Assembly (NCBI RefSeq): GCF_014873755.1
Contig: NZ_JADBEG010000001.1
Span: 3,908,501 to 3,972,500, forward strand
Direction: 5' to 3'
Origin: Amycolatopsis lexingtonensis
GTDB lineage: Bacteria; Actinomycetota; Actinomycetes; Mycobacteriales; Pseudonocardiaceae
DNA length: 64,000 nucleotides
Below are positions 13,597 to 29,525 of this stretch, one piece after another. The notes beneath the pieces are model-generated. The model saw only the letters and a list, made by a program, of their open reading frames with translations, made no database searches and was not told where the DNA came from. The position numbers and the translations under genes are program-made. Every line of letters starts with the position of its first letter. Positions within the stretch are counted from its first letter, which is position 1.

Positions 13597-15537
13597 CTAC
13601 TCCGCGGCTTCCTCCGCCGGCGCGAGTTCCAGCACTCCCCATCCCTCGGGAAGCGCGTCGGCCTCGCCGGGCACCCGGATCACCGTGCCGGGCGGCCAGG
13701 TGCTTTCCACGTCCACCTTCCGCTTGTGCCCGACCAGGCGGACCCACACCCCTCCGATCCGGGGCGGCCGCGCGAAGTGCGCGCCGGCGAACCCGACCGG
13801 GCCGTCGAAGCGCACGTCGTCGAAGACGGTTTCACCGTCGAAGCGTGCGCGGGCGAACCCGCCGACGTCGTCGAATCTCGTGTGGAGGAACCGCGCAGTT
13901 TGGCCGAACTCCGCCTCCCGGAACCCGGCCAGATCGGCGAATTCCGTGTTCTCGAACCACACGTCCGCGGCGAACCGGGTGCGTTCGAAGTCGGCCGCAT
14001 CGGCGAAGCGGCATTCGTAGAACCTCGTCACGCCGCCGAACGCCGCCTCCTCGAACACCGCGAACCGCGCGAACCGGGTGCCGCCGAAGTTCACGCCGGC
14101 GAACTCCGTCCGGACGAACTCCACTCCTTCGGGGAACTTCGCCATGTTGAACGAGACGTCGCCGGTGAACCGGGTTTCGGTGAAGTCGGTGTTCCGGCCG
14201 AATTCGGTGGTGAAGAAGTCCGCCCCGGCGAGCGTGGCGTTGCCGAACTGGGTGAACGCGCCGCCGAACCGCACCTCCTTGAAACTGGCGTAAGCGCTGA
14301 ACTCCGCGTGGGTGAAGTAGGCGTTGCCGGCGAACCGGGCGCCGCCGAACCAGCACCGGCCGAAGCGGGCCCGGTCGAACTCGGCCCGGTCCCCGAACCG
14401 CGTTTCCGTGAAGGACCCCTCTTGGGAGAACTTCGCCCGGGTGAACAGCGCGGGCGCGCGGAAGTCCGCCCGGTCGAACTTCGCGCTCGTGCCGAAATCG
14501 GCGTCGTCGAAGCGGGCGTAGCCCTCGAAGGTCACCCGCCCGAACCGGGCTTCGTGGTCGAACCGCGCGTGGTTGAAGCCGGCTTCGCCCATGAACCGCG
14601 CCCCGGTGAACACGGCGTTCAGCCCGAAGCGCGTCCGGTCGAACCACACGTCACCGGTGAAGGTGACGCCGGTGAAGTCCGCGGCGACGACGCGGCAGTC
14701 GATCAGGTTGGCCGGCCCGAGCACGGCGCCGGTGAGGTCGAGGCTGATGCCCGCCCAGAACGTGGCGGCCGGCTCGTCCTCGCCGCCGTGCACGAGGTGG
14801 CGGAACAAGATGCCCTGCGCGGTCCGCCGGACCTGGTACTCCGCCTCCGCCTCCGCGGGGGCGGGAGCTGCGGCGCGGGGCGCGGGCGGGGCGAGCCGCA
14901 GCGACGCCCGTTGCCGGGCCGCGCCGCCCAGCAGCGGCCGCGGCACCCCCGGTGGCCGGGCCGACGGCCGCGGCGCCGGCTCGCGCCGCGGCGGGGCGTA
15001 CGGCATCCGGAGGTACGCGCACAGCAGGTCGACGATGGTCTGGCGCTGGGAGGGGTTGTCCTGGGCGAGCCGCTCCAGCGCGTACAGCCCGGCCAGCCGG
15101 GCCGGGGCCTGCGGCGAACCGAGCTGGTCGGCCGCCTTGCCGTACAGGTCGGTGATCCGGCGGGCCTCGGCGTCGGCGACGGTGGCGGCGTGGGCCGCGC
15201 GGACCTGGTTCAGGCTCAGTTCCGAGGTCCGCTGCCGGCGCGCGGTCAGCCACAGGGCCGCCGCTCCCCCGGTGCCGACCACGATCGTGCCCGCGGTCTT
15301 GATGGCGTCCAGCTGATCCGAGTGCCCGCCGCCGCCGAACGCGACGAGCAGCCCGGCCGCCAGCCCGACACCGAGCACGACCAGCGCCACGCCCGCCCAG
15401 GCCATCGCCCGGTGGGACAGCACGGGCAGCTCCTCCGGCGGCGCCACGGGCGGCCGGTAGGTCAGCAGCGACAGCGGCGGGGAATCCGGCGGCGGGACGG
15501 GCTCGAGCGGGTCCGGGACGGGCGGCTGCGTGCTCAC
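13597..15537 (-). CDS. Membrane-anchored pentapeptide-repeat protein
   Basis: A 646-residue protein. The first 40 residues are proline-rich. Two membrane helices follow (about 46-67, GVALVVLGVGLAAGLLV, and 75-95, AGTIVVGTGGAAALWL), then a cytosolic helical linker (RRITDLYGKAADQLGS...ALERLAQDNPSQRQTIVDLL) common to actinobacterial members. The rest is a long right-handed quadrilateral beta-helix of more than 60 pentapeptides with central phenylalanine, for example ARFMGEAGFNHARFDHEARF. Such helices bind proteins; some protect gyrase, but no such role is shown here. The GTG at 15537 avoids a weak upstream ATG at 15564. The long reading frame on the opposite strand is a codon-bias artefact. Confidence 0.88.
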   Translation of the reverse strand: MSTQPPVPDPLEPVPPPDSPPLSLLTYRPPVAPPEELPVLSHRAMAWAGVALVVLGVGLAAGLLVAFGGGGHSDQLDAIKTAGTIVVGTGGAAALWLTARRQRTSELSLNQVRAAHAATVADAEARRITDLYGKAADQLGSPQAPARLAGLYALERLAQDNPSQRQTIVDLLCAYLRMPYAPPRREPAPRPSARPPGVPRPLLGGAARQRASLRLAPPAPRAAAPAPAEAEAEYQVRRTAQGILFRHLVHGGEDEPAATFWAGISLDLTGAVLGPANLIDCRVVAADFTGVTFTGDVWFDRTRFGLNAVFTGARFMGEAGFNHARFDHEARFGRVTFEGYARFDDADFGTSAKFDRADFRAPALFTRAKFSQEGSFTETRFGDRAEFDRARFGRCWFGGARFAGNAYFTHAEFSAYASFKEVRFGGAFTQFGNATLAGADFFTTEFGRNTDFTETRFTGDVSFNMAKFPEGVEFVRTEFAGVNFGGTRFARFAVFEEAAFGGVTRFYECRFADAADFERTRFAADVWFENTEFADLAGFREAEFGQTARFLHTRFDDVGGFARARFDGETVFDDVRFDGPVGFAGAHFARPPRIGGVWVRLVGHKRKVDVESTWPPGTVIRVPGEADALPEGWGVLELAPAEEAAE

Positions 15538-15701
15538 CCGCCCATCATGGCGGCCTCCGGCCACCGACGGGGCTCGATCAGGACACCTGACCGGACCTCA
15601 AACCCGAAACGCCGGACGCGGTCCCGCTACCGGCCCGCCGCCGTGCGATCAGCTCCGGAGCAGGTGTCACGGCCGGGTGCCGAAGGGGCAGGTGTGGCCG
15701 A

Positions 15702-19536: not shown

Positions 19537-20466
19537 TCAGCGGCCCGACAGGGTGCGGACCACCAGCTCCGCCGACGCGCCCGCGCCCAGCGTCGTGCCC
19601 GCGTAGCGGACGTCCGCCGCGAGCGTGCCCGTCGGTTCGTCGCGGACCGTCAGCCACACCGTGACCATCAGGAGCCAGCGGACGATCAGGTAGCCGAACA
19701 GCAGGAGGCCGACCAGGGTGCCGAAGGCCGCGACCGCCGGGGAGCGGCCCAGCAGGTGCAGGTACAGGCCGCCGGCCTGCTGGATCGCGCCGAGGCCGAC
19801 CGCGGCGGCGCCTGCCGGGCGGAGGGTCGAGCGCAGGGGTAGTGGGCGGCGGGGCAGGCGGGCCAGGCACCAGGCGATGACCAGCCAGTTCGCCGCGAGC
19901 CCGAGCAGCAGCGAGCCCGCGACCAGCACGAAGTGCGCGAACCCGCCGTCCAGGCCGGTCAGCCGGAGCAGGGCCGCGCCGGCCGCGCCGGTCAGGGACG
20001 CCAGGCCGAAGGAGAGCGCCATCGCCAGGCCGACCCCGACGAGCACCAGGACGTCGGTGACGATGCCGCGCAGCAGGGGCCGCGAGGTGCGTTCCTGGCC
20101 GAGCATCGCGGTGACGGCGTCGCGGACGTTGCTGATCCAGCTCCAGCCCGAGTACCCGGCGACGGCCAGCGCGAGCAGCCCGATCCGGCCGCGCTCGCCG
20201 ACCACGGTGTGCACGACGTCCGTGGCCTGGCCCGCGAGTTCGGGCGGCAGCGAGCTGCCGATGACGTGGTCGAGCTCGGCGGCCAGGATGCGGTCGCCGG
20301 CCAGCACGAAGCCGGTCACCGAGACGGCGACCATGATCAGCGGGACGAGCGCGAGCAGGCTGAAGAACGTCACGGCGGCGGCGTAGTGGTCGCCGTCGCG
20401 CTCCCGGTACCGGGCAAGCGTCGCCCCGGCTCGCCGGAACCCCTTCTTCACCACTCCACGCACCAC
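19537..20466 (-). CDS. YihY/BrkB family inner-membrane protein
   Basis: A 309-residue protein with six or so membrane helices. The family start AAAVTFFSLLALVPLIMVAV lies near residue 29 and the motif SGWSWISNVRDAVTAMLG near 106. Later helices include VLVLVGVGLAMALSFGLASL and AFGTLVGLLLFGYLIVRWLLM. The function of the family is not established; it was once called ribonuclease BN in error. Length is slightly shorter than the usual 320-350. It stands alone between the gene-free gap and the convergent-free fahA operon on the same strand. Confidence 0.88.
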   Translation of the reverse strand: MVRGVVKKGFRRAGATLARYRERDGDHYAAAVTFFSLLALVPLIMVAVSVTGFVLAGDRILAAELDHVIGSSLPPELAGQATDVVHTVVGERGRIGLLALAVAGYSGWSWISNVRDAVTAMLGQERTSRPLLRGIVTDVLVLVGVGLAMALSFGLASLTGAAGAALLRLTGLDGGFAHFVLVAGSLLLGLAANWLVIAWCLARLPRRPLPLRSTLRPAGAAAVGLGAIQQAGGLYLHLLGRSPAVAAFGTLVGLLLFGYLIVRWLLMVTVWLTVRDEPTGTLAADVRYAGTTLGAGASAELVVRTLSGR

Positions 20467-20533: not shown

Positions 20534-21739
20534 CTAGCCGGGCACCACCGTGCCCCGCACGTCGCCGAACCCGATCCGCGTGCCGCCGGGGCCGGGCGCC
20601 GTCGCGCTGATGACGACCTCGTCGCCGTCCTCCAGGAACGTGCGGGTCTGACCGCCGGGCAGCTCGATCGGTTCCCGCCCGCCCCAGGACAGTTCGAGGA
20701 ACGAGCCGCGCTGGTCGCGCTCCGGGCCGGTCACCGTGCCCGACGCGTAGAGGTCGCCCGTGCGCAGGTGCGCGCCGTTGACGGTCAGGTGGGCCAGCTG
20801 CTGCGGAGCCGTCCAGTACTGCGTGGCGAACGGCGGGCTCGACACCAGGTGGCCGTTGAGCCGGATCTCCAGGGCCAGGTCCAGGCCCCAGTTCTCACCG
20901 GTCCGCAGGTATTCGAACGGCTCCGGGTCCTGCGGCGGGCCCGCGACGCGCGCGTGCTCCAGCGCCGCCAGCGGGACGATCCACGGCGACACCGACGTCG
21001 CGAACGACTTGCCGAGGAACGGGCCCAGCGGCTGCATCTCCCACGCCTGGATGTCGCGGGCCGACCAGTCGTTGACCAGGCAGACGCCGAACACGTGGTC
21101 CGCGAAGTCCGCAGTGGACACTCCGGTGCCCGGCGTGGACGGCACGCCGACGACGAAGCCCACCTCCGCCTCGATGTCCAGCAACCGCGACGGCCCGAAC
21201 GAAGGAGCTTCGGCGGTGCGCGGCTTGCGCTGCCCGTGCGGCCGGACGACCGGCGTACCGGACGCCACGACGGTGCCCGCCCGGCCGTGGTAGGCGATCG
21301 GCACGTGCTTCCAGTTCGGCGGCAGCTCGGTGGCGTCCGGCCGGAAGATCCTCCCGGCGTTGAGCGCGTGGTGCTCGCTGGAGTAGAAGTCGACGTAGTC
21401 GGCGACCTCGAACGCCAGGTGGGTGTTCACTTCGGCGAGCGGCACGAGGTGCGGCCGGAGCTGGTCGGCGTACCGGGGTTCGGTCAGCCATTCCCGGACG
21501 CTCTCGCGGACCTCCCGCCAGGTGCCCGGCCCGGCGGCCAGCAGCGGGTTGAGCACTCCGCCGGTGAGCAGCGGCGCGAACGCCGCCGCGGTCTCGGCCG
21601 CCGCGGCGGTCAGGTCGAGGACCTGGTCGCCGACGGGCACGCCGATCCGGCGCTCGGGCGCGCCGGCCACCGAGAACACGCCGTAGGGCAGGTTGTCCAG
21701 GCCGAACGGCGTGTCCTCGGGGAGTTCGAGCCAGGTCAC
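20534..21739 (-). CDS. fahA: Fumarylacetoacetase
   Basis: A 401-residue fumarylacetoacetate hydrolase, last enzyme of tyrosine/homogentisate breakdown, giving fumarate and acetoacetate. The N-terminal domain begins TWLELPEDTPFGLDNLPYG. The catalytic domain contains YVDFYSSEHHALNAG, IAYHGRAGTVV, LDIEAEVGFVVG and VNDWSARDIQAWE, which carry the metal and catalytic residues. The C-terminal strands read GDLYASGTVTGP and FLEDGDEVVI. The GTG start overlaps the stop of the DUF885 gene (GTGA), so it is coupled to it. No homogentisate dioxygenase is in the window. Confidence 0.93.
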   Translation of the reverse strand: MTWLELPEDTPFGLDNLPYGVFSVAGAPERRIGVPVGDQVLDLTAAAAETAAAFAPLLTGGVLNPLLAAGPGTWREVRESVREWLTEPRYADQLRPHLVPLAEVNTHLAFEVADYVDFYSSEHHALNAGRIFRPDATELPPNWKHVPIAYHGRAGTVVASGTPVVRPHGQRKPRTAEAPSFGPSRLLDIEAEVGFVVGVPSTPGTGVSTADFADHVFGVCLVNDWSARDIQAWEMQPLGPFLGKSFATSVSPWIVPLAALEHARVAGPPQDPEPFEYLRTGENWGLDLALEIRLNGHLVSSPPFATQYWTAPQQLAHLTVNGAHLRTGDLYASGTVTGPERDQRGSFLELSWGGREPIELPGGQTRTFLEDGDEVVISATAPGPGGTRIGFGDVRGTVVPG

Positions 21740-24700
21740 GAGGGCTCCCCCGCCCGGGCGGCCACCCAGTCGGCCACGACCGTCGCCAGCACGGAGAGCG
21801 GGAGCGTTCCGCTGCCCAGGACCGTGTCGTGGAACTCGCGGATGTCGAACCGGTCGCCCAATGTCTGCTCCGCTTCGGCACGCAGGCGCTCGATCTCCAG
21901 GCGGCCCACCATGTAGCTGAGGGCCTGGGCGGGGTGGCCCGCGTAGCGGTCGATCTCCGCTTCGATCTCGATCGGCGCCATCGGGGTGTTGTCCCGCAGG
22001 AAGTCCACCGCGCGCTGCCGGCTCCAGCCCAGCGCGTGCATGCCGGTGTCGACCACCAGCCGGCCCGCCCGCATCGAATCCTGCGTCAGCAGCCCGAACC
22101 GCGAGACGTCGTCGGAGTACAAGCCCATCTCGTCGGCCAGCCGCTCGGCGTACAGGCCCCAGCCTTCGACGTAGGCGTTGAACATGCAGATCCGGCGCAG
22201 CAGCGGCACCCCGGTCAGCTGCTGCGCGAGCGTCAGCTGGAAGTGGTGCCCCGGCACGGCTTCGTGGAACGCGACGGACTCGCTCAGCGTCCGCTGCCGC
22301 TGCTCCGCCTCGTTCGTGTTGGCGTAGTAGGTGCCCGGCCGCGAACCGTCCAGCGACGGGTCGATGTAGTACGCGATCGAGCCGCTTGCGGCCTCGGCCG
22401 GGGGCACCGGCGCGACCTCGCAGCGCTGCTCCGGGACGCGCAGGAACCATTGCGGTGCCACGGCTTCCGCACGGGCGATCGTCCGGCGGGCCGCCTCCAG
22501 CAGCTCCTCCCCGTCCCGCCAGCGCAACGCCGGGTCGGTGCGGATCCGCTCGAAGATCTCGGCGAGCTCGGTGGTGCCGAACACCTTCGCGCCCAGCTCC
22601 CGGTACTCCCCCGCCAGCCGCTCGATGATCGCCAGCCCGGTGTCGTGCAGTTCCTGGGCCGTGCGCTCGGTCGTCGTCTCGGCGCGGATCAGGGCCGCGT
22701 ACCGCTCCGCGCCGCCGGGCAGGTCACCCAGGCCCGGCGACGTCTCCGGCCGCGCGACCGGGACGACCTCGCCGGCCAGGAAGTCGCGGTACCGCGCGTA
22801 GGCGGGCCGCACCACCTCGGCGAGCAGCCGGTCGCGCTCGGCCTCGAGCCCGTGGACCGGGACCTTCAGCGGGTCGTCGTCCGGGGCGCCGAGGTAGCGC
22901 TCGACGTACCCGATGCCGATGCGCGCCAGGAACTCCGGCGGCGTCAGCCCCTCGGCCAGCGCCGCGCGCTGCCGCTCGATCAGCTGGTCCAGGTACGTGC
23001 CGACGGCCGCGAGCCGGCTCAGGTAGCCGCGCGCCTTGACCTCGTCGTCCAGCACCGTCTGCGGCAGCTCCACCAGCAGCATCAGCGCCGGGGCGGCCAG
23101 GCCGTCGCTCACCGCGATGTCCGCCCGGCCGGAGTCGAGCAGGTCGATCTCGGTGCGCGCCTGCCAGATCACCACGTCCCGGGTGACGCGCTCGGCCGGG
23201 GCCAGCGCCGTCGCGTCGAGCGCTTCGGCCCGCGCGATGATCCCGGCGAGCCCGGCGCGGTACCGCCCGGCCGCTTCGGCGGTCTGATCGGCCAGCTTGT
23301 CGTGCGCGCCCGGCAGGCCGTAGAGCGACGGGATCAGCGGCTGCGCCTCGAACATCAGGTCCAGGCACTCGTCGGCGAGGCGGTCGGGCGTGTCGGCCTG
23401 CCCGGCCACCCACTCGGCGACGACGCCGGCCAGCACCGGCAGCGGGAGCGTCCCGCTGCCGAGCACGACGTCGTGGAACTCGCGGATGTCGAAGCGGTCG
23501 CCCAGCGCCGCTTCGGCTTCGGCGCGCAGCCGCTGGATCTCCAGGCGCCCCACCATGTAGCCGAGCGCCTGGCCCGGGTTGGCGGCGTACCGGTCGATCT
23601 CGGCCTCGATCTCCAGCCGCGCCATCGGCGTGTGCTCGACCAGGTAGTCGACCGCCTGCTGCCGGCTCCACCCCAGCGCGTGCAGCCCGGTGTCGACCAC
23701 CAGGCGGCCGGCGCGCATCGAATCCTGGGTCAGCATGCCCAGCCGCGAGACGTCGTCGGAGTACAGCCCCATCTCGTCGGCCAGCCGTTCGGCGTACAGC
23801 CCCCAGCCCTCGGCGTACGCGTTCACGTGCGCGATCCGGCGCAGCAGCGGCAACCCGGTGAGGCCCTGGGCGAGGCACAGCTGGAAGTGGTGCCCCGGAA
23901 CGGCTTCGTGGAACGCCACGGCCTCGCTGGTGAACCGCGGCCGCTTGTCGGCCTCGTGGGTGTTCGCGTAGTAGACGCCTGGGCGCGTCCCGTCGAGCGA
24001 CGGCTGGAGGTAGTACGCGATCGTGCCGCTGGCCGCCTCCGCCTCGGGCACCGGCGCCACCGCGCACTGCTGCGCCGGAACCCGCGAGAACCACTGCGGG
24101 GCAACGGCTTCCGCGCGCGTGATGGCGGCCCGGGCGCCGGCCAGCAGCTCCTCGCCGTCCCGCCAGCGCAACGCCGGGTCGGTGCGGATCCGGTCGAAGA
24201 TTTCGGCGAGGTCGGTCGTGCCGAAGAGCTTCGCGCCCAGCTCGCGGTACTCCTCCGCCAGCCGCTCGATCAGCGCCAGCCCGGTCTCGTGCAGGTCTTG
24301 CGCGGTGCGGTCCGTGGTCGTTTCGGCGCGGATCAGCGCCGCGTACCGCTCCGGGCCGCCCGGCAGGTCGCCGATGCCCGGGGACGTCTCCGGCCGCGCG
24401 ACCGGCGCGACCTCGTCGGCCAGGAACGCGCGGTACCGCTCGTACGCCGGGTGGACGACCTCCGCGAGCAGCCGGTCGCGTTCGGCTTCGAAGCCTTCGA
24501 GCGCGTACGGCGGTGTGACCCGCAACGGGTCGCTCTCCGGCGCGGCGAGGTAGCGCTCGACATAGCCGATGCCGGTGCGCACCAGGAACTCCGGCGGCAC
24601 GAGCCCCTCGGCCACCGCGGCGCGCTGCCGGGTGATCACGGCGTCGAGGTAGTCCCCGACGCCGGCGAGCCGGCTCAGGTAACCGCGGACCTTCCGCTCG

Positions 24701-27700
24701 TCGTCCAGCACCGTCTGCGGCAGGTAGAGCAGCAGCTGCAGCGCGGGCGCGCCGAGGCCGTCGCTGACCGCGATGTCGCCGCGGCGCGAGTCGATCTCGT
24801 CGATTTCCGTTCGTGCCTGGGAAAGCACGACCTCGCGGGTGACCCGCTCGGCGGCCGGCAGGCCCGTGGGGTCGAGCGCCTCGGCACGTGCGGCGATCGC
24901 CGCGTACGCGGCCCGGAAGCGGTCTTCCGCGCCCGGATCGGGCAGCTTGTCGTGCTCGCCCGGCAGCCCGAACACCGACGGGTAGAGCGGCTGCCGCTCG
25001 AAGTTGAGCGCCACCAGGTCGTCGGCGAGCCGATCGGGCGTGTCGCCCTGGCCCGCCACCCAGTCCGTGACCACCTTGGCCAGCGCGGACAGCGGCAGCA
25101 TGCCGTGGCCGAGCACGACCTCGTGGAAGCCGCGGATGTCGAACCGCTCCCCCAGCGCCGCCTCGGCTTCCGCCCGCAGCCGCTGGATCTCCAGCCGGCC
25201 CACCATGTACCCGAGCGCCTGCGCCGGCCAGGCCACGTACCGGTCGATCTCGGCCTCGATCTCCAGCCGCGCCATCGGCGTGTGCTCGACGAGGAAGTCG
25301 ATCGCCTGCTGCCGGCTCCAGCCCAGCGCGTGCAGGCCGGTGTCCACCACCAGGCGGCCCGCCCGCATCGAATCCTGCGTCAGCATGCCGAAGCGCGAGA
25401 CGTCGTCGGAGTACAAGCCCATCTCGTCGGCGAGTCGCTCGGCGTACAGGCCCCAGCCCTCGGCGTAGGCGTTGAACATGCCGATCCGGCGCAGCAGCGG
25501 CAGGTCGCGCAGCTCCTGGGCCAGGCTGAGCTGGAAGTGGTGCCCCGGCACGGCTTCGTGGAACGCGATGGCCTCGCTGGTGAACCGCGGCCGCTTGTCC
25601 GCTTCGTGGGTGTTCGCGTAGTAGGTGCCCGGGCGCGTGCCGTCGAGCGCCGGCGGGAGGTAGTACGCGATCGTGCCGCTCGCCGCGTCGGCCTCGGGCA
25701 CCGGCGCGACCTCGCACTTTTCCGCCGGCAGGTGCGAGAACCAGCGCGGGGCGACGGCTTCGGCACGGGCGATGGCGTCCCGCGCCGCGGACAGCAGTTC
25801 CTCGCCGTCGCGCCAGCGCAGGGCCGGGTCGGTGCGCAGCCGCTCGAAGATCTCCGCGAGTTCGGTGGTGCCGAAGACCTTCGCGCCGAGTTCGCGGTAT
25901 TCCGCCCCGAGCTTTTCGATCAGCGCCAGCCCGGTCTCGTGCAGTTCCTGTGCGGTGCGCTCGGTCGTCGTCTCCGCGCGGATCAGCGCCGCGTACCGCT
26001 CCGCACCGCCCGGAACGTGGCTGATCCCGGGCGCGGTGTCGGGCCGCCCGACCGGCTCGACCTCCGCGCGCAGGAAGTCGCGATAGCGCGCGTAGGCCGG
26101 GCGGACGACCTCGGCGAGCAGCCGGTCGCGGTCGGCTTCGAAGTTCTCGACGGCCGCCGTCGTGCCCACCTTGAGCGGATCGCGGTCCGGTGCGGCGAGG
26201 TAGCGGTCGATGTATTCGGCGCCGACGCGGGCGAGGTACGCCGGCGGCAGGAGCCCTTCGGCGAGGCTCTCGCGCTGCCGTTCGGTCAGCGTCGCCAGGA
26301 ACGTCTCGACCGCGGCGAGCCGGGCGAGGTAGCCGCGCGCCTTCTTTTCGTCGTCCAGTTTGTAGTACGGCAGGTACATCAGCAGCTCGAGCGCGGGCGC
26401 GGTGAGCCCGTCGCTGACCGCCATGTCGGCCGTGCGCGCGCCCAGCCTGTCGGCCTCCACCTCGGCGGCGGCGATGACGACCTCGCGCGTGACGGCTTCC
26501 TCCGGGGACAGGCCGGCTTCGGGCAGCGCCCGCGCGCGGGCCGCGAGCCCGGTGTAGGCGGCCCGGAAGCGCTCCTTCGCGGCCCGGGTCTGGTCGGCGA
26601 GCCGGTCGTGGCCGCCGGGCAGGCCCAGCACCGACGGGGTCAGCGGGTCCTGCTCGAACGTCAGCTCGACGAGCTCGCCCGCCAGGCCGTCGACGGTGTC
26701 GCCGTGCCCGGCCACCCACTCGTCGACGACGGCGGCCAGCACCGACAGCGGCAGCGGGCCGCCGGCCAGGACGAGGTCGTGGAACGCGCGGACGTCGAAC
26801 CGCGAGCCGAGCCGCTCCTCGGCGCGGGCCCGGTTCCGCTGGATCTCCAGCCGCCCCACCATGTACGCCAGCGCCTGGCCGGGCCACGCGATGTAGCGGT
26901 CGACCTCGGACTCGATCTCGGCGCGTGCCTCCGGCGTGTGTTCCAGCAGGTAGTCGACGGCCTGCTGCCGGCTCCAGCCCAGCGCGTGCAGCCCGGTGTC
27001 GACGACCAGCCGGCCCGCCCGCAGCGAGTCGCCGGCCAGCATGCCGAGCCGGGCGATGTCGTCGGAGTAGAGCCCCATCTCCCCGGCGAGGCGCTCGCTG
27101 TAGAGGCCCCAGCCCTCGAGGTAGGCGGTGAAGCCGCCGATGCGGCGCAGCAGCGGCAGCTCGGTGAGCCCTTGCGCGATGCTGAGCTGGAAGTGGTGCC
27201 CCGGCACGGCTTCGTGGAACGCGGTCGTCTCGGCCATGTGCCGGAGCCGCTCGGTGGCCTGGTGGGTGTTCGCGAAGTAGATGCCGGGCCGGGAGCCGTC
27301 GGCCGCCGGGCGCAGGTAGTACGCCGCGGGCGCGCCGGGCGCGACCTCCGCCGGCACCGCTTCGACCGTGCACTCCTGCTCGGGGATGCGCCCGAACCAC
27401 TTCGGCGCCTCGGCGGCTGCCCGGGCGACGGCCGTGCGTGCGGTGTCCAGCAGGTCGTCGGCGCTGGCCCAGCGCAGCGCCGGGTCGGTGCGCAGGCGCT
27501 CGAAGATCTCGGCGAGGTCGTCGGTGCCGAACACCTTCTGCCCCAGCTCGCGGTACTCGGCGGCGAGCGAGTCGATGACGTCGAGCCCGATCCGGTGCAG
27601 CTCTTCGGGCGTGTGCCGGGTGGTCGTGTGCATCCGTGCCAAGCGCGCGTACATCTCATCGCCGCCGGGCAGCCACGAGAGGCCGGGCCGGTCTTCGGGC

Positions 27701-28356
27701 CGCCCGTGCGGCTTCACCTCGTCGGCGAGGAACGCGCGGTACTCCGCGAAGGCCGGGCGCACGACGTCGGCGAGCAGTTCCTCCCGCCGCCGCTCGAACT
27801 CCTCGTCCGGCGCCGGCTGGCGGCGCAACGGGTCGGTGGCCGGGTCGGCGAGGTAGCGGTCGAGGTGCGCGATCGCGGCGTCGACCAGGTGGGCCACCGG
27901 GACCAGGCCGTCGGCGATGCCCTCGGCGTGCCGCCGGGCGGACTGGCGGAGGAACTCCGGGATGGCGGCGAGCCGCCCGAGCTGCGCCTCCGCGGCCTCG
28001 CCCGCCGTCACGGTCGTCATCGGCAGGGCCAGCAGCAGGCCGGCCGCGGGGCCGATCGAGAGGTCGGTGACGGTGAACTCGGCCATCCGGCTGTCGGCCG
28101 ACGCGATGCGGTTCTCGGCCGTGGTGATCAGCACCTCGCGGGTGACCCGGTCCTCGGCCGAGAGGCCCTCGGCGGCGATCGCGCGGGCGCGCTCCAGGAA
28201 CTCCGCCAGCCGGGCGCGGAACGCCCGCTCGGCCTCGGCGGACTGGTCCGGCAGACCGGGTTCCGCCGGGCGGATGCCCATCAGCGCGGGCGTCAGCGGA
28301 TCGGCGGCGAACAGCGCTTCGACGAACTCGTCGGCGAGTTCGGTGACCGCGGTCAT
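21736..28356 (-). CDS. Giant protein of four tandem DUF885 metallopeptidase-like domains
   Basis: A single uninterrupted frame of 2206 residues containing four diverged copies of a roughly 550-residue DUF885 domain: about 1-553, 554-1105, 1106-1655 and 1656-2206. Each copy keeps the putative zinc motif HEAVPGHHFQ, at H381, H933, H1483 and H2031, spaced 552, 550 and 548 residues. About 30 residues later each keeps EGWGLY(S/A)ER, where the glutamate would be the third ligand. Each also has RLVVDTGLHALGWS (M for L in the fourth), and copies 2-4 resemble each other more than copy 1. Junctions have no linker: a C-terminal helix VVxxWVAG runs into the next LADELV. DUF885 proteins are normally a single domain and are thought to be metallopeptidases of unproven substrate. 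No signal peptide or membrane segment is seen, so it is cytoplasmic. The gene is coupled to fahA by a 4-bp overlap. Confidence 0.92.
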   Translation of the reverse strand: MTAVTELADEFVEALFAADPLTPALMGIRPAEPGLPDQSAEAERAFRARLAEFLERARAIAAEGLSAEDRVTREVLITTAENRIASADSRMAEFTVTDLSIGPAAGLLLALPMTTVTAGEAAEAQLGRLAAIPEFLRQSARRHAEGIADGLVPVAHLVDAAIAHLDRYLADPATDPLRRQPAPDEEFERRREELLADVVRPAFAEYRAFLADEVKPHGRPEDRPGLSWLPGGDEMYARLARMHTTTRHTPEELHRIGLDVIDSLAAEYRELGQKVFGTDDLAEIFERLRTDPALRWASADDLLDTARTAVARAAAEAPKWFGRIPEQECTVEAVPAEVAPGAPAAYYLRPAADGSRPGIYFANTHQATERLRHMAETTAFHEAVPGHHFQLSIAQGLTELPLLRRIGGFTAYLEGWGLYSERLAGEMGLYSDDIARLGMLAGDSLRAGRLVVDTGLHALGWSRQQAVDYLLEHTPEARAEIESEVDRYIAWPGQALAYMVGRLEIQRNRARAEERLGSRFDVRAFHDLVLAGGPLPLSVLAAVVDEWVAGHGDTVDGLAGELVELTFEQDPLTPSVLGLPGGHDRLADQTRAAKERFRAAYTGLAARARALPEAGLSPEEAVTREVVIAAAEVEADRLGARTADMAVSDGLTAPALELLMYLPYYKLDDEKKARGYLARLAAVETFLATLTERQRESLAEGLLPPAYLARVGAEYIDRYLAAPDRDPLKVGTTAAVENFEADRDRLLAEVVRPAYARYRDFLRAEVEPVGRPDTAPGISHVPGGAERYAALIRAETTTERTAQELHETGLALIEKLGAEYRELGAKVFGTTELAEIFERLRTDPALRWRDGEELLSAARDAIARAEAVAPRWFSHLPAEKCEVAPVPEADAASGTIAYYLPPALDGTRPGTYYANTHEADKRPRFTSEAIAFHEAVPGHHFQLSLAQELRDLPLLRRIGMFNAYAEGWGLYAERLADEMGLYSDDVSRFGMLTQDSMRAGRLVVDTGLHALGWSRQQAIDFLVEHTPMARLEIEAEIDRYVAWPAQALGYMVGRLEIQRLRAEAEAALGERFDIRGFHEVVLGHGMLPLSALAKVVTDWVAGQGDTPDRLADDLVALNFERQPLYPSVFGLPGEHDKLPDPGAEDRFRAAYAAIAARAEALDPTGLPAAERVTREVVLSQARTEIDEIDSRRGDIAVSDGLGAPALQLLLYLPQTVLDDERKVRGYLSRLAGVGDYLDAVITRQRAAVAEGLVPPEFLVRTGIGYVERYLAAPESDPLRVTPPYALEGFEAERDRLLAEVVHPAYERYRAFLADEVAPVARPETSPGIGDLPGGPERYAALIRAETTTDRTAQDLHETGLALIERLAEEYRELGAKLFGTTDLAEIFDRIRTDPALRWRDGEELLAGARAAITRAEAVAPQWFSRVPAQQCAVAPVPEAEAASGTIAYYLQPSLDGTRPGVYYANTHEADKRPRFTSEAVAFHEAVPGHHFQLCLAQGLTGLPLLRRIAHVNAYAEGWGLYAERLADEMGLYSDDVSRLGMLTQDSMRAGRLVVDTGLHALGWSRQQAVDYLVEHTPMARLEIEAEIDRYAANPGQALGYMVGRLEIQRLRAEAEAALGDRFDIREFHDVVLGSGTLPLPVLAGVVAEWVAGQADTPDRLADECLDLMFEAQPLIPSLYGLPGAHDKLADQTAEAAGRYRAGLAGIIARAEALDATALAPAERVTRDVVIWQARTEIDLLDSGRADIAVSDGLAAPALMLLVELPQTVLDDEVKARGYLSRLAAVGTYLDQLIERQRAALAEGLTPPEFLARIGIGYVERYLGAPDDDPLKVPVHGLEAERDRLLAEVVRPAYARYRDFLAGEVVPVARPETSPGLGDLPGGAERYAALIRAETTTERTAQELHDTGLAIIERLAGEYRELGAKVFGTTELAEIFERIRTDPALRWRDGEELLEAARRTIARAEAVAPQWFLRVPEQRCEVAPVPPAEAASGSIAYYIDPSLDGSRPGTYYANTNEAEQRQRTLSESVAFHEAVPGHHFQLTLAQQLTGVPLLRRICMFNAYVEGWGLYAERLADEMGLYSDDVSRFGLLTQDSMRAGRLVVDTGMHALGWSRQRAVDFLRDNTPMAPIEIEAEIDRYAGHPAQALSYMVGRLEIERLRAEAEQTLGDRFDIREFHDTVLGSGTLPLSVLATVVADWVAARAGEPS

Positions 28357-28490
28357 GGGCAGGACCCCCAGCTTCGTTCGGTGTCTCGCCGGTGACCCTA
28401 ACGGAGATCACCGACAGAAACGGTGTGCGTTTCGCCGGGGGCGGACAGCCTTCGGCACGGCCGGACGGGCGAAGCGGTAGCGTTCCGGGA

Positions 28491-29525
28491 GTGGCCGTGA
28501 CCGATCCCGTGGATACCCGCCTGCTCGCCGCGCTCGCCGAACTCGGCAAGACCGCGGTGCACGAGCTCGCGGCCAAGGTCGGCATGGATCCCCGCGAGGT
28601 CGCCTACCGGCTGGTCGCCCTGTCCGGCAGCGGGCTCCCGCTGCTCGTCGGCGTCGAAAGCGACCCGCAGGGGTTGCGCGCGGCCATCGCGGGCGCCCCG
28701 CCTTCGTGGGCGAACCGGCCGCCGCAGCAGTACCCGGCGCCGCCGCCTTCGCAGCCGGTTCCGCAGCAGCCGCCTGCGCCGGGGCCGGGGCCGGGGCCGG
28801 GGCCGTACAACGTGCAGGGCGCGCCTTCGGGGCCGTACAACGTCCAAGGCGCGCCATCCGGGCCGTACAACGTCCAAGGCGCGCCATCCGGGCCGTACAA
28901 CGTCCAAGGCGCGCCATCCGGGCCGTACAACGTCCAGGGCACGCCGTCCGGGCAGTACCCGGGGCCGCCGCCGCGCCCGCCGCAGCCACCGCGCCCGTTC
29001 ACGCCGCCGCCGGTGCCGCTGGACCCCGCCGTGAGCACCTGGGGCCTCCCCCAGACGGCGTCGTGGGCCCGCGGCGACGAACCGGTCAAGCCGGCCGGCA
29101 CGGGCAAGCGCGGCCGGCTCGGCGAGGTCATGGAGACCCAGGGCCTCGAGGGCGAGCAGCTGTCGGTGCAGCTCCTGGAGGTCCAGGACCCGGCGGACTA
29201 CCTGTTCAGCGCGGCCGGCTACCGCCTCGAGGACGGCGAACGCGCGGTGGTCGTGCACACCGAGATCACCAACCGCGGGTCGATCCCGTTCGCGTCGCTG
29301 CCGGACAACTACCTCGAGCTGCTGACCGCCGACGGGACGGCGATCGGCAAGGCGCCGGTGTCGCTGACCTCGCGGCCCCCGCACAAGATCGGCGTCAAAC
29401 CGGGCGAAACCCTCGGCGGGCACACGGTGTACGTGCTGCCGGACGCGACGCGTGTGGTGTCGGTCCGGTGGAGCCCGCGGCCGGAGCCGGACGAGCGCAC
29501 GCTGACCTGGTCGATCGAGGACTAG
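28491..29525 (+). CDS. Winged-helix protein with proline-rich decapeptide repeats and beta-sandwich domain
   Basis: A 344-residue protein from GTG at 28491. The N-terminus (residues 5-60) looks like an AsnC/Lrp-type winged helix: DTRLLAALAELGKTAVHELA then KVGMDPREVAYRLVALSGSG. A proline-rich middle contains five decapeptides PYNVQGAPSG at residues 104-153. The C-terminal domain (about 215-344) resembles DUF4352-type immunoglobulin-like folds: SVQLLEVQDPADYLF, RAVVVHTEITNRGSIPF, LLTADGTAIGKAPVS. No membrane segment is visible. The combination occurs in Pseudonocardiaceae; role unknown. It is divergent from the DUF885 gene. Confidence 0.7.
   Translation: MAVTDPVDTRLLAALAELGKTAVHELAAKVGMDPREVAYRLVALSGSGLPLLVGVESDPQGLRAAIAGAPPSWANRPPQQYPAPPPSQPVPQQPPAPGPGPGPGPYNVQGAPSGPYNVQGAPSGPYNVQGAPSGPYNVQGAPSGPYNVQGTPSGQYPGPPPRPPQPPRPFTPPPVPLDPAVSTWGLPQTASWARGDEPVKPAGTGKRGRLGEVMETQGLEGEQLSVQLLEVQDPADYLFSAAGYRLEDGERAVVVHTEITNRGSIPFASLPDNYLELLTADGTAIGKAPVSLTSRPPHKIGVKPGETLGGHTVYVLPDATRVVSVRWSPRPEPDERTLTWSIED
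28800..28949 (+). repeat. 30-bp coding tandem repeat, five units
   Basis: Five head-to-tail 30-bp units beginning GGGCCGTACAACGT, each encoding PYNVQGAPSG or close to it. Units 2-4 are identical; units 1 and 5 carry a few substitutions. In-frame copy-number change would not disturb the reading frame, so it behaves as a minisatellite. Confidence 0.95.

Follow-up and report, generated by a model that had tools for sequence, protein, structure and literature searches.

DUF885 proteins (Pfam PF05960) of solved structure, namely 3o0y from Colwellia, 3iuk from Arthrobacter and 3u24 from Shewanella, are single units, two of which are titled lipoproteins. M32 carboxypeptidases (BsuCP and Thermus) and M3 oligopeptidases are also single-unit proteins, and somatic ACE (family M2), a eukaryotic, membrane-bound enzyme with the canonical HEXXH motif, consists of tandem fused metallopeptidase domains with a possibly related helical fold. 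Here we describe a gene in a 64,000-nucleotide stretch of the Amycolatopsis lexingtonensis genome (hereafter the window) whose product, in contrast to the solved DUF885 proteins, carries four DUF885 units on one chain without a signal-like start. The two domains of ACE are described as homologous, catalytic and different in specificity in PMC4950319, whereas the Amycolatopsis protein has up to four domains, is bacterial and carries HExxPGHH, a motif that is likewise unlike those of the M32 and M3 enzymes. In a fungal protein of 751 residues from Talaromyces stipitatus, PF05960 is reported to be joined to a phosphorylase-superfamily domain (PMC8478523); in Amycolatopsis it is fused to its own copies rather than to a different domain. 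Each unit matches the family of 3o0y, 3iuk and 3u24 over its full length. Among the sequence matches of the DUF885 protein in the PDB there was no chain of ACE, of an M32 carboxypeptidase (BsuCP, Thermus) or of an M3 oligopeptidase.

The gene is a single minus-strand frame of 2206 amino acids that starts with ATG at 28356 and stops with TGA at 21738-21736. Its parts in the window are as follows.

21736..28356, minus strand: four-unit DUF885 gene (2206 amino acids); an intact fused four-unit gene is also present in 18 other genomes
26695..28356, minus strand: unit 1 (U1), residues 1-554, the diverged unit, which clusters with gene 1 of unfused pairs
25051..26694, minus strand: unit 2 (U2), residues 555-1102, which with units 3 and 4 clusters with gene 2 of unfused pairs
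23395..25050, minus strand: unit 3 (U3), residues 1103-1654, a type absent from 6 of 8 three-unit arrays (putative losses)
21739..23394, minus strand: unit 4 (U4), residues 1655-2206, a type absent from the other 2 of 8 three-unit arrays (putative loss)
27193..27216, minus strand: HEAVPGHH of unit 1, residues 381-388
25537..25560, minus strand: HEAVPGHH of unit 2, residues 933-940
23887..23910, minus strand: HEAVPGHH of unit 3, residues 1483-1490
22243..22266, minus strand: HEAVPGHH of unit 4, residues 2031-2038
26686..26715, minus strand: junction U1/U2, residues 548-557, with 10 residues from the last Trp of one unit to the Leu of the next, including DT
25030..25059, minus strand: junction U2/U3, residues 1100-1109
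23380..23409, minus strand: junction U3/U4, residues 1650-1659

A Pfam scan of the 2206-residue protein gave four PF05960 stretches with a total of 2053 bits (cut-off 32.4). Scored alone, every unit exceeded the DUF885 gathering score by far (518-524 bits) and spanned nearly the full profile (about 1/6 to 530/532 of 532). Three other Pfam families matched the protein, all under their cut-offs, and an NCBIfam search with it gave no match. HEAVPGHH begins at residues 381, 933, 1483 and 2031 (periods of 552, 550 and 548) and the EGW glutamate lies at residues 414, 966, 1516 and 2064 in units 1-4. U1 is 55-58% identical to U2, U3 and U4, which are 73-78% identical among themselves. The protein thus holds four real, diverged and intact DUF885 units at motif periods of 548-552 residues, as the preliminary description of this DNA had proposed.

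We read the locus in 80 Amycolatopsis genomes (that of the window and 79 others; the set omits some named Amycolatopsis). All 204 full-length units keep HE..PGHH (HEAVPGHH in 153, HEAIPGHH in 49, HEGVPGHH and HEVIPGHH in one each) and EGW.LY (EGWGLY in 203, EGWALY in one), consistent with the earlier proposal that all four units may be active. The contiguous HEXXH of canonical zinc metallopeptidases (gluzincins) was found in none of these 204 units, which have HExxPGHH instead, and the helix in the unit model is interrupted at 383-386, within the motif. The Glu of EGW is invariant downstream of HExxPGHH and is a candidate counterpart of the gluzincin Glu ligand. In the intact arrays to which the analyses of diagnostic sites and of the ratio of nonsynonymous to synonymous substitution rates (dN/dS) were confined (19 four-unit and 8 three-unit), median dN/dS was 0.296 for U1, 0.176 for U2, 0.222 for U3 and 0.228 for U4; judged from these ratios, purifying selection is acting on every unit. 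Divergence between units is greater in the N-terminal half (U1/U2 identity of 45%, versus 69% in the C-terminal half), which hints only weakly that substrate access differs, because orthologous U1s show the same trend (64% versus 77%).

The single-unit model is confident; unit 2 has the fold of the solved DUF885 structures, and the single-unit fold also resembles M32, M3 and ACE peptidases, more weakly. The highest rows outside DUF885 in a VIA-align fold search were mostly peptidases, and Foldseek with one unit gave template modelling (TM) scores of about 0.3 to known peptidases; full-length ACE (9clx) was among its matches (TM 0.31), which is no evidence of a common arrangement. DUF885 units may belong to the ACE/M3/M32 helical-cage fold group. 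With regard to how the units are joined, spacing at 108 fused junctions was 10 residues in 105, 11 in two and 12 in one, and the junction dipeptide was DT in 106 and NT in 2, such that Thr was present in all 108. This Thr may cap a helix; at the sequence level, the constant spacing is a firmer sign of fixed geometry than the Thr. A tandem model was fairly confident (predicted TM score of 0.83, best of five models) and put the last helix of U1 about five residues away from the first helix of U2. The units thus nearly abut, although the earlier statement that there is no linker does not hold to the letter. The idea of a built-in oligomer fits both this predicted structure and the near-constant spacing, whereas the listed rows of a fold search with the tandem model aligned to the first unit only and say nothing on packing.

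The domain architecture is real, unusual, conserved in one clade and derived from a known family, and a mechanism for it is plausible. We propose, with a probability of roughly 55%, that the protein is a cytosolic multi-active-site metallopeptidase for short peptides with four helical-cage units on one chain. Under this proposal, four catalytic DUF885 units would be strung together by very short junctions of constant length, each unit being a helical cage that probably shares its fold group with ACE, with neurolysin and with the M32 carboxypeptidases. Every unit would bind zinc and cleave peptides, the units would pack against each other in a fixed manner, and a diverged U1 beside two or three similar U2-type units might make peptide breakdown broader or cooperative. 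By analogy, the best reading is that the four-unit protein follows the plan of somatic ACE and extends it to as many as four putative catalytic sites. Two reserves apply: the motif is HExxPGHH rather than the canonical HEXXH, and all junctions may descend from one ancestral junction, in which case their spacing would be a poorer sign of geometry. A more specific version, in which four active peptidase cages would form a rigid single-chain array as a bacterial counterpart that goes beyond somatic ACE, with peptides passed between the diverged U1 and two or three U2-type units and with unit number adjusted as whole units other than U1 and U2 come and go, we regard as tentative and rather unlikely.

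Across the 80 genomes the locus is a fused four-unit gene in 19, a fused three-unit gene in 8 and a fused two-unit gene in 35, and it is unfused in the form of a separate adjacent pair in 10, a separate triplet in 2 and a single unit in 3 (in L192, one of the last, the unit is U2-type by alignment and may be incomplete, since the contig stops there). Three more loci carry a broken frame, which may reflect sequencing error or decay; but for it, L129 would be four-unit, L153 two-unit and L191 a pair. Haloechinothrix, Thermocrispum, A. deserti, A. thermalba, A. pithecellobii and Amycolatopsis sp. GM8 have two separate genes, the stop codon of one overlapping the putative start codon of the other. 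In a tree of 107 units, drawn from the window, from named loci and from five single-unit paralogues (units of <440 residues and the majority of loci from L080 onwards were omitted), gene 1 of the pairs groups with U1 (support 99) and gene 2 with U2, U3 and U4 (100). A tree of 79 first units (of the 80, only the broken one of L191 is absent), rooted on L192/L193, requires a single change between unfused and fused states, a count independent of the root; the 64 fused loci (62 intact, 2 frame-broken) form one clade (97), within which 28 loci, the three- and four-unit arrays, make up a clade of their own (99). Trees were quick searches except for the protein tree of the U2, U3 and U4 lineages; A1 comprised 37 of the 62 intact fused arrays (the window included) and A2 58 rows.

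U2, U3 and U4 are three lineages in full-length trees. Two of the three-unit arrays, L140 and L141, have a third unit that clusters with U3 (98/90), and in the remaining six it clusters with U4 (100/100); for this reason we rejected a three-unit ancestor of the four-unit arrays. U1 and U2 types are present in all 27 intact three- and four-unit arrays. The simplest history that these trees suggest is a clade ancestor with four units followed by at least two independent losses of one whole unit. Overall, an overlapping gene pair would have fused once and expanded to four units before these losses. Sliding identity and 42 informative of 45 diagnostic sites (19:5 U4-like, then 13:5 U2-like; permutation p 0.004) hinted that U3 is a U4/U2 mosaic made by unequal crossing over, but half-trees and full-length trees both place U3, together with the third units of L140 and L141, apart from U2 and U4, and we rejected this candidate. 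Relatives seem to preserve the series from a single gene through two neighbouring genes and a fused pair to four units, with one unit lost in some. Single gene, overlapping pair, fused pair, four units and three units, all at one locus and all with conserved motifs, make up a natural series for measuring how much the fusion and multiplication of active sites is worth. The locus also singles out DUF885, an uncharacterised family whose metal motif is non-standard, as deserving an assay.

The nearest named relatives of the four-unit protein are Amycolatopsis proteins (82-89% identity). In a sample of 297 genomes of the family, at least 21 rows had the tandem profile over both units and no internal stop, all from the 26 genomes of the same genus; no fused tandem was among the matches listed (down to about 775 bits) for the 271 others. 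In a phylum sample of 396 genomes (matches at E <= 1e-60), a fused tandem was found in the genome of the window and in none of the other 395. Both searches scored at most two stretches per genome, and a junction query gave the same picture among the matches listed. Long frames in G285, G219, G234, G088 and G312 were considered as fusions outside the genus and rejected, since reading them showed separate genes (in G285 two units share a frame but a stop lies between them); G181 likewise has two separate frames. A plasmid search gave three records whose matching pieces span 1-5% of the query; two are fahA. As to whether such fusions are widespread and already described, they are common within Amycolatopsis and none was seen outside it among the matches listed, and no tandem DUF885 protein was the subject of the titles listed among open-licence papers on DUF885, PF05960 or COG4805. 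The open-licence literature on tandem metallopeptidase domains in bacteria yielded alginate work only.

The alternative that survives best, although we think it unlikely, is that dosage or a neutral ratchet explains the array, redundant tandem copies with an easily lost short stop/start overlap having fused without functional consequence. This is what the separate gene pairs of several relatives, in which a stop codon overlaps a putative start codon, might lead one to expect, as might the separate triplets (2 of 80 genomes), the single units (3 of 80) and the seeming interchangeability of U3 and U4 types in the role of third unit. Such an origin is harder to reconcile with a single fusion kept throughout a clade of 64 genomes, only two of them frame-broken, with a spacing of 10 at 105 of 108 junctions, or with the purifying selection on every unit.

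It is less probable still that the units are hydrolases of some other amide or ester rather than peptidases, or have no activity beyond metal binding. The fold-search rows outside DUF885, mostly peptidases at the top of the VIA-align results, speak against this, as does a model of a DUF885-labelled protein in PMC12572635 with a predicted zinc site of two His and one Glu; in that paper a second program calls the protein enzymatic, and the His pair is given as HExxH, unlike HExxPGHH here, and so may not carry over. The family is still named as a domain of the DUF series, no assay was found among the open-licence papers listed for it, and the low Foldseek scores and the unusual motif are also what a non-peptidase could present.

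The multi-site peptidase proposed above gains no hint of function from the flanking genes, which are the following.

20534..21739, minus strand: fahA, fumarylacetoacetase, whose GTG start overlaps the DUF885 stop by 4 base pairs (GTGA)
28497..29525, plus strand: divergent gene for a protein with an AsnC-type helix-turn-helix (HTH) followed by a Pro-rich repeat region, in which a GPYNVQG-type repeat of ten residues occurs five times
19537-20466, minus strand: BrkB-family protein (PF03631), downstream of fahA, probably an ordinary membrane protein
13597-15564, minus strand: pentapeptide-repeat protein (PF13576, eight stretches)

The overlap with fahA had been noted as an unexpected coupling, and a role together with fahA in tyrosine breakdown would also fit its presence in the fetched stretch of 43 of the 79 other genomes (42 of them within 500 base pairs downstream on the same strand). 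In the other 36, however, including all 19 two-unit arrays of one clade, fahA is not in the fetched stretch, and the conserved neighbour is instead the AsnC-type HTH gene, which lies upstream in divergent orientation in 78 of 79; the one exception, L192, has its contig end at that place, and some loci in this count lose their upstream side to contig ends. Because of this difference the fahA link is not a common feature of the array; a meaningful coupling was not supported, and a joint role is very improbable.

An assembly or annotation artefact, for which the proneness of repeated units to misassembly and a long antisense frame might be cited, can be dismissed almost entirely, as the earlier reading had held, since the units differ by 22-45% and 19 of the 80 genomes, several of which are assembled as one contig, have an intact fused four-unit gene. 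The source genome is itself one contig of 10.74 Mb, with the four units and one distant single-unit DUF885 paralogue (a 575-codon frame). The antisense open frame has 2188 codons (window 21829-28395, plus strand) and lies opposite almost the entire DUF885 gene; the third-position guanine-cytosine (GC) content of the gene is 0.95-0.97, and the frame is probably a by-product of GC-rich codon use.

In two genomes outside the fused clade (L183 and L184), three separate adjacent DUF885 genes are followed by fahA, an unfused expansion. Tandem duplication of DUF885 seems to recur, since alphaproteobacteria (L066, L069 and L078) also have adjacent, separate pairs of DUF885 genes, at about 33% identity.
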